A stretch of 64,000 nucleotides of DNA from the NCBI RefSeq assembly GCF_900206265.1, contig NZ_LT907782.1, positions 930,001-994,000 of the forward strand. The letters run 5' to 3'. The notes beneath the pieces were generated by a model that was not told the DNA's origin, did not search any database, and was given only the letters and a program-made list of their open reading frames with translations. Both the position numbers and the translations under genes were made by a program. The DNA is from Nitrosomonas ureae. GTDB lineage: Bacteria > Pseudomonadota > Gammaproteobacteria > Burkholderiales > Nitrosomonadaceae. This document shows positions 29,739 to 45,603 of this stretch, piece by piece (position 1 is the first letter of the stretch; every line of letters starts with the position of its first letter).

Positions 29739-30113
29739 ATGAAAATTAACTCAAATCTAGACCTTTATAATTCATTCCGCGAGCTTATCCTCTTCTTTAT
29801 ATTTATTCTTTGCATCTCAGCCTCGCTGTATGCTAAAGCAGAAGGTATTGAGAACTTGCAAAAAAATGCAAGTATTACCTATGAAAAAATGATACAAGCT
29901 AAACAGAATGCTGAAACCTTCACTAAAGATTTAACTTTTGCTGAAAAAAAACTGGCTACAGCAAAACAAAAATTAGCGGAAGCGGAACAAGCAGTCGAAA
30001 CGGCAAAGAAAAAGTCTGAGCAAGCTAAGATCTCGATGGAGAAAGCAGTTAAGCAATGGAAGCAAGCCTCGGATGCGTTAGCGAACGAATGGGGTAAAAC
30101 CGAAGTAAAATAA
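29739..30113 (+). CDS. secreted coiled-coil protein of unknown function
   Basis: Intact 124-aa frame with an N-terminal hydrophobic segment (about 16-32, LILFFIFILCISASLYAKA) that looks like a signal peptide. A long Ala/Lys/Glu-rich helix follows (about 45-115; EKKLATAKQKLAEAEQAVETAK), predicted to form a coiled coil. There is no Cys and no enzymatic motif. It resembles low-complexity periplasmic stalk proteins only in style. It lies between the IS5 and IS481 remnants, with IS DNA starting 24 bp past its stop. No strong ribosome-binding site is visible. I do not recognise the family. Confidence 0.6.
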   Translation: MKINSNLDLYNSFRELILFFIFILCISASLYAKAEGIENLQKNASITYEKMIQAKQNAETFTKDLTFAEKKLATAKQKLAEAEQAVETAKKKSEQAKISMEKAVKQWKQASDALANEWGKTEVK

Positions 30114-31119
30114 TCATAGATAATATTATTAGTAGTAATTCAGATTTGATCTGACAATAAGATCTTGCCAAAGGGGGGATTACCCGGTTTGATAGAGGTG
30201 CGAAACTTTATCAACCAAGCGCGAAAGCGCAAAGGAGTAATCCCATAAGTATTGTTCAACACAATGTCATCAAACACAAAATTGGTTTGCTTAATCATCC
30301 GAACTTGGCACTGTATCCCGCGCTTGCAAGGTGATGGGGTTTTCTCGCGATACTTTTTATCGCTATCAGGCTGCCGTGGAAACAGATGGCGTTGATGCCC
30401 TGATTGATGCTAGCCAACGCAAGCCCAACATCAAGAACCGCCTCGAAGAAGCGAGGCAGCTGTCACAGCTTTTGCCCTTGGAGCAGCCTGCTTTTGGTCA
30501 AGTTCGGGTTTCCACGAACTGCGCAAATGCGGAATCTTCGTTTGTTTATCCGGTGTCCGTTCGGTGTGGCTGCTCCAGAATCTGTAGTCGTTCAAAAAGC
30601 GTCTATCCGCCTTGGAAAAGCATATCGCCGAAACCGGGAAGGTGTTAACCGAGACACAGTACAGGCGCTGGAGAAGAAACAAGAAGATGGTGTTCCCATG
30701 ATGAAATCGAGACCGCTCATCCCGAGTATTTCTGTAGCCAGATACCCTCTACGTCGGTACTATTAAGAGTGTGTGGCGGATTTATCAGCAGACTTTCGTC
30801 GGATAACTATTCCAAGTGGGCTGCCACCAAGCTATATACCACCAAGACACCGATCACAGTGGCTGATTTGCTCAATGATCGGGTGCTGCCATTCTTCGCC
30901 GAGCAGAGTATGTGCGTCATCAGTATCCCCTGATCGACCGTGGTACCGAATATTGCGGCAAGTCAGAGAATCACGATTACCAGTTCTATCTGGCACTGAA
31001 TGACATCGAGCATTCCAAAACCAAAGCCAATCATCCACAGACCAACGATATTTGCGAGCGTTTCCACAAAACAATCTTGTAGTTCTATCAGATAGCATTC
31101 CGGCGCAAGAATAAACAAT

Positions 31120-43850: not shown

Positions 43851-45383
43851 CTACACCTGTGGATGTGCCCGTTCCAGTTTACTGCATAGCTTATTTAATG
43901 CGCTCAGATATGCTTTTGCAGAAGCCACGACAATATCTGTATCCGCACCATGCCCATTAACAATACGATCAGATTTTTGTAATCGTACGGTTACTTCGCC
44001 TTGCGCATCAGTACCACTGGTGATATTGTTCACGGAATATAGTTGCAGCTTCGCCTCGCTCAAAAGCAATTTTTCAATCGCACGGAAAGTGGCATCTACG
44101 GGACCACTCCCTTCAGAATCAGCGCTCATCTCATTCCCGTTATCCGAAATCACCACACGTGCATAAGGGATCTCACCCGTTTCGCTATGCACAATCAACG
44201 AGATTAGCCGGAAACATTCATGCAATACTAACTCTTCATCCGATACCAATGCATGAAGATCTTCATCGAATATCTCATGTTTTTTATCGGCCAATTCCTT
44301 AAATCGCATGAAAGTATTGTTAAGCATCTCTTCGGATTCTAGCTCGATACCAAGTTCCATTAGGCGATTCCGAAAAGCATTACGCCCCGAATGCTTTCCC
44401 AGCAATAATTTGTTTGCACCCCAACCCACATCTTCTGCACGCATGATTTCATATGTCTCGCGGTGTTTCAATACGCCATCTTGATGAATACCCGACTCAT
44501 GTGCAAAAGCATTCGCACCGACTATCGCTTTATTGGGTTGGACTGGAAAGCCGGTGATACCCGAAACCAGTTTACTTGCCGAAACAATATGTGTTGTATC
44601 AATTCTTGTATCACAAGGAAAATAATCCTGTCGGGTACGAACAGCCATCACGATTTCTTCCAATGCAGCATTCCCCGCTCTTTCCCCCAAGCCATTGATG
44701 GTACATTCAACTTGCCGTGCGCCATTCATCACTGCAGTCAATGAATTAGCCACAGCCAGTCCTAAATCATTGTGGCAATGAACCGAGAAAATTGCCTTAT
44801 CCGAATTCGGAACGCGCTCACGTAAATTCCGAATAAGCGTCCCGAACTGATCCGGCATGGTATAGCCAACTGTATCAGGAATATTAACCGTGGTTGCGCC
44901 CGCATCGATCACAGCTTCAAGTACCCGGCACAAAAAATCCAATTCTGATCGACCCGCATCCTCTGGGGAAAACTCAATATTATCAGTGTATTGACGCGCC
45001 CAATTCACTGCCTTAACGGCTTGTGTTATTACCTGATCAGGTGACATTCGCAACTTTCTTTTCATATGAACCGGCGATGTAGCAATGAAAGTATGAATAC
45101 GCGCTGATTGCGCGCCTTTTAACGCTTCACCCGCACGCTGAATATCAGTTTCAATCGCACGCGCTAACCCACACACCATGCTATCCTTGACTGAGTCAGC
45201 AACTGCCTTCACAGCCTCAAAATCTCCATTTGATGCTGCCGGAAAGCCCGCCTCGATAACATCCACCCCCATGCGCTCCAGTTGCCAAGCAATACGCACC
45301 TTTTCTTCCTTAGTCATGGATGCACCCGGACTTTGCTCACCATCACGCAACGTTGTGTCAAAAATAATTAAATGCTCTTGCAT
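43851..45383 (-). CDS. leuA: 2-isopropylmalate synthase
   Basis: First step of leucine synthesis (2-oxoisovalerate + acetyl-CoA), 510 aa. The HMGL catalytic motifs [16 protein letters not shown] and [14 protein letters not shown] and the C-terminal allosteric LeuA domain (from about 395) are present. The ATG at 45383 follows GGAG; an in-frame GTG four codons earlier overlaps that site. The preceding leader suggests attenuation by leucine supply. Confidence 0.96.
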
Positions 45384-45419
45384 TATGCTCTCCACATGAA
45401 GAAGAAACCTTAAAGTAAG

Positions 45420-45444
45420 ATAAAATTCGCTACTCGAATTTTAT
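45420..45444 (-). promoter_or_regulatory. hairpin in the leuA leader
   Basis: A perfect 10-bp A/T-rich inverted repeat (45420-45429/45435-45444) with a 5-nt loop lies between the putative leader peptide and leuA. The run after it is only moderately U-rich (CTTACTTT), so it is at best a weak terminator or antiterminator arm. Confidence 0.4.
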
Positions 45445-45474
45445 AGGGAAGAAAGAAAATTAGGGAGAGAAAAT

Positions 45475-45567
45475 TTAGCGCGCAAAGCGCAACAACAGAC
45501 ACGCACGTGCCTTTATTGAAACTGCAGACAGGGAGAAAAAATATTTATCTTTCTTTTCAGACATCAT
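45475..45567 (-). CDS. putative leucine-rich leader peptide of leuA
   Basis: A 30-codon frame beginning MMSEKKDKYFF and ending CLLLRFAR-stop, 91 bp upstream of leuA. Three consecutive Leu codons (CTG TTG TTG) near the end resemble amino-acid-sensing leader peptides. Its ATG lies at the predicted transcription start, with no ribosome-binding site upstream, so it would be leaderless. The frame is also open upstream into pssA (to 45699), but that extension is antisense-like noise in another frame. Low-to-moderate confidence that it is translated. Confidence 0.45.
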   Translation of the reverse strand: MMSEKKDKYFFSLSAVSIKARACLLLRFAR

Positions 45568-45574
45568 GATGGGA

Positions 45575-45603
45575 AATATAATTAGTTTTTCCTTCGAATG
45601 CAA
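45575..45603 (-). promoter_or_regulatory. candidate leuA leader promoter
   Basis: TTGCAT (45598-45603) and TATATT (45575-45580) on the minus strand are exactly 17 nt apart. The start would be around 45567-45569, at the first ATG of the leader peptide. It lies just past the pssA stop region, giving leuA its own control within the ilv-psd-pssA-leuA block. Confidence 0.5.

Follow-up and report, generated by a model that had tools for sequence, protein, structure and literature searches.

A leucine-rich, probably leaderless reading frame conserved upstream of leuA in Nitrosomonadaceae and through much of the Burkholderiales as a candidate leucine attenuator

Does the short leucine-rich reading frame in front of leuA in Nitrosomonas ureae encode a leader peptide through which ribosomes sense leucine, and if so, by which route could it act on the gene behind it? 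The window analysed here is a stretch of 64,000 nucleotides of this organism (contig NZ_LT907782.1; family Nitrosomonadaceae, order Burkholderiales in the GTDB lineage of the source); all coordinates given below are window positions and all leader features lie on the minus strand. The gene leuA, encoding 2-isopropylmalate synthase (43851..45383; NCBIfam NF002087 and TIGR00973 above cut-off), is the last in a minus-strand order that we take to be ilvB-ilvH-ilvC-psd-pssA-leuA, the names other than leuA being read from the translations. A sequence-only reading of this locus had proposed a promoter with a 17-nt spacer, a 30-codon frame ending CLLLRFAR, a distance of 91 bp from there to leuA and a perfect 10-bp inverted repeat, and all of these are present. 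The -35-like element TTGCAT (45598..45603), read from the sequence and represented by TTGC at this place in most leaders of the family, is separated by 17 nt from the -10 element TATATT (45575..45580), whose position places the predicted leuA transcript start at about 45567-45568. Since the consensus promoter scan demanded four of six matches in the -35 element and TTGCAT has three, the leuA promoter is absent from that scan. The upstream open reading frame (uORF), with the peptide MMSEKKDKYFFSLSAVSIKARACLLLRFAR*, comprises 30 codons and a TAA stop (45477-45475) and occupies 45475..45567; its ATG at 45567 lies 7 nt past the -10 element, where one would expect transcription to begin, in line with the earlier claim that the transcript starts at the ATG, and a second ATG follows at 45564. 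Sequence and family comparison together suggest that the uORF is leaderless.

Towards its end the frame carries the Leu codon run CTG TTG TTG (45490..45498), and a hairpin, here called P2 (45478..45490; GCGC at 45490-45487, loop TTTGC, GCGC at 45481-45478), begins in the last Leu codon and extends to the stop codon. From the stop codon onwards there is a run of 42 nt without any G (45436..45477), which by its base composition is rut-like. The 10-bp inverted repeat ATAAAATTCG-AGTAG-CGAATTTTAT (hairpin P3, 45420..45444) is perfect over 10 bp and has no U-run immediately 3' of it in the window. The leuA Shine-Dalgarno sequence GGAGAG (45388..45393), of which GGAGA is invariant in an alignment of 45 leaders, precedes the leuA ATG at 45383, 91 bp past the uORF stop. 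In the region 45403-45390 a UUCC sequence (UUCU in the window) can pair with GGAG of the nearby Shine-Dalgarno sequence; such a small local hairpin might tune leuA translation.

The reading could have failed on the relatives, had the frame and its Leu codons not been conserved there; they are, and the idea survived. LeuA is present in 124 of 125 genomes of the family, and the region upstream of leuA was inspected in 108 of them, namely all 84 genomes of the genus with leuA and 24 of the 40 others. In 104 of these 108 genomes leuA is preceded by a uORF that starts in a like manner and whose end resembles LLR-x-A-R, 102 of them identified by a strict motif in an open ATG frame (81 in the genus, 21 in the rest of the family) and two by eye, one ending LLRRRR (G003) and one starting with GTG (G122). 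In the remaining four of the 108 (G047, G066, G088 and G108) the leader was not found, and in G108 the contig ends close by. Among the 102 strict leaders the uORF is 26-35 codons long; in 10 of the 81 from the genus the stop lies at least one codon past its usual position, and a few ends in the family deviate, for example LLRFMR and PLRLVR. With up to two mismatches allowed, the motif occurs in the source genome of the window at the known site and nowhere else, a reversed control pattern also giving one match. In one genome (G085, contig C11, 119637-121163) leuA itself reads with one in-frame TGA.

The promoter geometry is conserved along with the frame. The distance from the -10 element to the ATG is 6 nt in 20 leaders, 7 nt in 34 and 8 nt in 25 (79 of 102 in total), and 10 nt in another 20, the rest consisting of one leader with 9 nt, one with 1 nt and one without a promoter by the rule used. 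For Streptomyces lividans a mean distance of 6.3 nt between the -10 element and the transcription start is reported (PMC8079986). With a start some 6-7 nt after the -10 element, most leuA messages of the family would begin at or beside the ATG, and distances of 6-8 or 10 nt leave little space for a Shine-Dalgarno sequence.

Several features suggest that the frame is translated. In the alignment of 45 genus leaders, chosen by hand from the 81 strict ones and mostly from the closer ones, all 209 gap runs inside the frame have a length of 3, 6 or 9, while those past the stop include lengths of 1, 2, 4, 7 and 8. Frames +1 and +2 contain stops in 92 and 58 of the 102 family leaders, respectively; the absence of a stop in frame 0 belongs to the selection rule, and one motif-bearing genome alone failed it, having GTG for ATG. 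The second-last Leu codon encodes Leu in 77 of 81 genus leaders, using CTG (40), TTA (23), TTG (8) and CTA (6), and in 20 of the 21 leaders from the rest of the family. On average, 23% of the residues in the 102 leaders are Leu, compared with 9.7% in the genes of the window. Both Arg codons are CGC in 102 of 102 leaders, a codon accounting for 20% of Arg codons in the window genes; it should be noted that the motif rule itself required CGC, and that 102 of 108 genomes satisfied it. CGC is invariant in spite of this modest usage, and the codon that follows the first Arg is free to vary among the 102 leaders; the nucleotides are conserved here, and not the peptide alone. Seven leader peptides compared with NCBIfam and Pfam gave no match, though peptides this short would rarely match. 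From sequence comparison, then, the frame upstream of leuA is conserved, looks translated and is not a product of chance, and what stands directly before the gene is, as is typical of an amino-acid attenuator, a short, translated-looking frame in which codons for the end product abound.

The sequence-only reading had suggested an alignment across the Nitrosomonadales; the leader turns out to extend past the family, through much of the order. Named carriers include Nitrosomonas ureae, N. communis, N. marina, N. eutropha, Nitrosospira multiformis, Nitrosovibrio tenuis and two Aromatoleum species. The pattern CTGCTGCGCNNNGCGCGCT occurs in 75 of the 300 order genomes searched, and its reversed control in about 18. 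Thirty pattern loci were fetched: 14 have the motif directly before a stop, and all 14 lie upstream of leuA, six of them coming from a single family (f13), while the other 16 lack the stop. A further 80 genomes of the order were chosen by hand, of which 69 have a close LeuA; 60 upstream regions were fetched, one of just 101 bp. Just past a -10 box and before leuA, a Leu-rich frame is found in 32 of 59 genomes, as against 1.45 in shuffled sequences and 3 on the reverse strand, and under a stricter rule (LL near the frame end) in 27 of 59, as against 0.40 and 0. At least one of the 32 is a false entry, recognised by eye as the end of pssA (L179), and the rule misses frames visible by eye at other loci (such as L148 and L152). 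In the 27 of 59 genomes left over, the automatic rule detected no leader. Inspection by eye of genomes of the order without the leader showed that in some of them leuA directly follows pssA, and that at ten loci (L170, L174, L182, L183, L186, L190, L195, L196, L197, L199) a small HTH-like protein, starting MQLDIDRLIADFGGP... or similarly, is encoded directly before leuA; this could possibly be a different kind of leuA regulator.

In a class sample of 274 genomes, just three of which belong to the order, the strict combination of promoter and motif gave matches in 11, and none of the 12 loci fetched has leuA within 700 nt. As the same strict pattern matches 15 of 60 leuA upstream regions of the order, this strict form is not seen beyond the order in the class sample. 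A looser scan of 80 named loci reported a frame in 50; it was run without a control, includes clear false matches (L294, L311) and misses some family members through its Leu threshold (L246). Leader-like, Leu-rich frames past a -10 element and before leuA were seen at L289, L303 and L308, records titled Gammaproteobacteria or Acidiferrobacterales, and judging by such sequences the element may reach past the order.

A like leader also stands upstream of a non-orthologous, yeast-type leuA in one genome (G395; loci L131/L202), whose protein scores above the cut-off of NCBIfam NF002991 and below that of TIGR00970, being cut by the end of the locus. Between this leader and the yeast-type gene there is a second small frame (MRIIPLISIVLSRLLS...) with a Shine-Dalgarno-like stretch of its own. 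With the yeast-type LeuA of G395 as query, 24 of 40 hand-chosen genomes were matched, and at 7 of 15 loci (those of 27 for which the script had placed the gene start; one of the seven is the query's own record) a small frame ends on LLLR or carries it close to the end, in a scan that ran without a control; at other yeast-type loci the Leu-rich frames are of a less clear kind.

Three hairpins recur in the leader RNA: P1 immediately before the Leu codons, P2 and P3. In the genus they are more stable than shuffled sequences (mean z of -1.5, -1.2 and -1.8, respectively), whereas the start of the uORF (0.3) and the tract after the stop (0.1) are without extra stability; outside the genus the family has a weak P1 (-0.66), with P2 at -1.14 and P3 at -1.75. 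In the 45-leader alignment the three together form pairs in 85.9% of cells, compared with 82.7% after shuffling (0 of 500 shuffles as high) and 24-44% when slid; 54 cells are changed on both sides, where shuffles give 29.8 and none of 500 reaches as many. The covariation score of 0.196 compares with 0.156 in shuffles, again with none of 500 as high, and with 0.022-0.070 when slid. These comparisons should be read with the caution that related sequences can exceed shuffles without any structure. Two further measures in the same 45 leaders are not outstanding, namely the pairs with double changes (12 vs 9.8 shuffled, 43 of 500 as high) and the further pair types (30 vs 31.1, 391 of 500 as high). 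Within the 45 genus leaders both sides change at 9 of 10 pair positions of P1, and P3 shows double changes at two pairs, its nine inner pairs being formed in 96.5% of cells and the outermost in 76.7%. In the window just 5 of the 10 aligned P1 pairs form. P2 is paired and invariant in 45 of 45 genus leaders and, having no variation there, gives no covariation signal in that alignment.

The 10-bp repeat singled out by the earlier reading is real and conserved in the genus, but another hairpin is more widespread: a different repeat takes the place of P3 in those other genera of the family that were inspected, and it is the P2 type that recurs across the order in varied forms. In 28 of 32 leaders of the order (all automatically found leaders from other families) a hairpin of at least 4 bp starts no more than 2 nt away from the final base of the last LL codon, where 4.0 are expected from shuffled segments. 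Its forms include GCGC(N5)GCGC, GCGCC(N3)GGCGC, TGCGCG(TTCG)CGCGCA, TGCGCG(GCCG)CGCGCA, TGCGC(GCAA)GCGCA, TGCCC(N6)GGGCA, CTGC(GCAA)GCAG and TGCGCC(GCTA)GGCGCG, the stop codon starting within the loop of the last.

Which signal, then, would link the frame to leuA? Past the uORF stop, G makes up 6.5% of the 40 nt that follow in the 102 family leaders, compared with 22% in upstream control windows; 58 of the 102 have no more than two G in these 40 nt, and the best 78-nt value of C minus G exceeds 0.1 in 99 of 102 leaders as against 3 of 38 coding pieces. Since nine G-free runs of at least 42 nt exist in the window when both strands are counted, the tract of N. ureae by itself is unremarkable there. 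A G-poor tract with C over G is rut-like in the sense of being compatible with Rho-dependent termination, which is not proof of it; rho is encoded in the source genome. Candidates for intrinsic terminators depend on the rule applied. The strictest (a stem of at least 6 and 6 T of 8) finds 3 of 81 leaders in the genus (1.4 expected) and 0 of 21 in the others (0.5), so that a strong terminator of the enterobacterial type occurs in 3 of 102 family leaders; a middle rule (stem of at least 5, 5 T of 8) finds 27 of 81 (8.6) and 4 of 21 (1.6), and a third (stem of at least 4, four G-C pairs, 5 T of 8) 18 of 81 (2.5) and 4 of 21 (0.8). In the window, the consensus scan lists one weak terminator-like site in the leader, the GCGC hairpin at 45491-45479 with the tail CTAAATTTTC. 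Two of the 28 P2-type hairpins in the order have a T-rich stretch behind them, with 5 T of 8 in L163 and 6 T of 8 in L175. Sites under the strictest rule are near chance, those under the other two above it. The earlier remark that the hairpin lacks a strong U-run is borne out, which speaks against an enterobacterial design.

These data bear on several ways in which the leader might work. The sites in excess of chance under two of the three rules, together with the one in the window, the stability of the three hairpins in the genus, the changes on both sides of P1 and the T-rich stretch just after P2 in L175, could be taken to indicate attenuation in which P2 or P3, together with a U-rich stretch, makes a weak intrinsic terminator and P1 serves as antiterminator or pause hairpin. 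The scarcity of sites under the strictest rule, the 26 of 28 hairpins of the order that have no T-rich stretch just after them, and an unsystematic search that found no alternative pairing of the P2 and P3 arms make this unlikely in our estimation. We would give a modest, slightly better chance to translational control after the manner of the actinobacterial LEU element, in which folds would hide the leuA Shine-Dalgarno sequence and a ribosome stalled on the Leu codons would free it. There is a precedent in that element (PMC1262725), the Shine-Dalgarno sequence is mostly paired in whole-leader folds of 101 leaders, and the consensus fold pairs the conserved UUCC with the GGAG just after it. 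However, the partners of the Shine-Dalgarno sequence are scattered over the uORF, P1, the tract and P3 without a single conserved place, the stretch of Leu codons and P2 pairs with it at a mean probability of 0.011 in the same 101 leaders (pseudoknots lying outside the model), and the conserved P2 has no obvious link to it.

Two further readings concern the frame itself. The peptide end LLR-x-A-R, conserved in the family, might act as an arrest sequence at the stop codon that leucine modulates, similar to RAPP in CruR, whose arrest motif lies near the C terminus (PMC9426467). Across the order, however, the ends vary (LLLRVRAH, LLLRASAN, LLLPPRGR, LLLRKQ, LLLLRR) while the hairpin stays; inside the family there is no constraint on the residue that follows the first Arg, and the stop comes later in the 10 genus leaders mentioned above; we regard this as highly improbable. 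It is harder still to hold that promoter and RNA element are what is conserved and that the frame just comes along with them, serving no purpose through its translation: GCGC...GCGC is indeed held at the nucleotide level, but gaps in multiples of three are confined to the frame, stops occur in the other frames, Leu is kept through synonymous codons and Leu-rich frames precede two unrelated types of leuA, leaving this a very slim chance. Taken together, the lack of a consistent strong intrinsic terminator, the lack of a conserved partner of the Shine-Dalgarno sequence and the rut-like tract lead us to favour Rho-dependent termination as the likely output.

The reading we prefer, a ribosome-sensed leucine attenuator with leaderless initiation and probably Rho-dependent termination before leuA, has in our judgement about an even chance of being correct. 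The leuA transcript would start at or a few bases from the ATG of the leader peptide, and ribosomes would load on the bare 5' end and translate it. When charged Leu-tRNA is scarce, the ribosome would stall on the Leu codons towards the frame's end, with the left arm of P2 under its front edge, and stalled and queued ribosomes would shield the C-rich, G-poor leader, so that RNA polymerase continues into leuA. With plentiful leucine, the ribosome would reach the stop and depart, P2 would re-form, the G-poor tract would lie bare, and transcription would end before leuA, most likely via Rho. The sequence comparisons show the frame, its Leu codons, the promoter geometry, P2, the G-poor tract (in the family) and the link with two unrelated leuA genes; we infer translation, stalling and the direction of the response from the arrangement of these parts, and the composition of the tract suggests the Rho step. 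A ribosome stalled on the Leu codons would by itself leave the downstream tract uncovered, and shielding would therefore need ribosome queues or an alternative fold; a search that was not systematic found no fold of the latter kind. More broadly, we tentatively consider, at somewhat less than even chances, that this is an ancient betaproteobacterial class of attenuator, in which leaderless start, Leu run and a hairpin joined to the last Leu codon make up a single unit. The hairpin would sense whether the Leu codons are occupied by a ribosome, the output would be Rho-dependent termination and not a terminator/antiterminator switch, and the unit would have been kept with, or moved to, two unrelated leuA genes.

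In the enterobacterial leu attenuator, the leader peptide with its Leu codons precedes leuA, is provided with a ribosome-binding site and is followed by an intrinsic terminator with a U-run. The Leu codons in a peptide before leuA are shared with the leader described here, whereas there is no room for the ribosome-binding site and no strong terminator in the latter. The 2004 survey of proteobacterial attenuators by Vitreschak et al. is said to deal mainly with gamma- and alphaproteobacteria, and in the open-access literature, searched by title and the beginning of abstracts (subscription papers falling mostly outside this scope), we found, among the papers listed, no description of a betaproteobacterial leuA leader. 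Rfam at gathering score places no family on the leader stretch of the window, and at E values up to 1 just Afu_203 and asd appear there, both far below their gathering scores. Elsewhere in the window, at 30065-30243 on the minus strand, the proteobacterial small RNA psRNA2 (RF02349) is found well above its gathering score.

Closest in appearance is the leader of Streptomyces lividans leuA, LeuL1, which is likewise Leu-rich, leaderless and without a typical intrinsic terminator, and which has 15 residues compared with the 26-35 codons of the family studied here (PMC8079986). A leaderless Leu leader lacking a typical terminator is, on that account, already known, and the betaproteobacterial version would be a further variant. 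The actinobacterial LEU element is a pseudoknot whose base stem joins the Leu codons to the Shine-Dalgarno sequence (PMC1262725); such a stem is not evident here, where instead a hairpin starts in the last Leu codon, and an independent origin of the betaproteobacterial and actinobacterial leuA leaders looks likely. In the trpL/rnTrpL leader of Sinorhizobium meliloti trpE(G), transcription starts right at the ATG of the leader peptide (PMC7298713); the likeness lies in the leaderless start, which in our case is predicted, the difference in its tryptophan codons and classical attenuation. A leaderless leader peptide, which the sequence-only reading had expected to be uncommon, has precedents in these Streptomyces and Sinorhizobium examples. 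For the output, the uORF CruR of Bordetella pertussis, also a betaproteobacterium, which senses copper, offers a parallel (PMC9426467), combining a uORF with a bubble of C over G and Rho-dependent termination ahead of the regulated gene, the latter reported for CruR and conjectured here; it differs in its CXXC motif for copper and its RAPP arrest motif, and no relation in sequence is apparent.

Leucine attenuation is known from enterics and, in a terminator-less form, from Actinobacteria. On the strength of the comparisons presented, the Leu-rich uORF is probably a leucine gauge that switches leuA on and off in many betaproteobacteria, and it supplies candidate small genes for many genomes. 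If true, a betaproteobacterial version spread over the order would make leaderless uORFs a common way of building amino-acid sensors, and it would offer a well-conserved system in which the roles of 70S initiation, of a hairpin abutting the sensing codons and of Rho could be probed.
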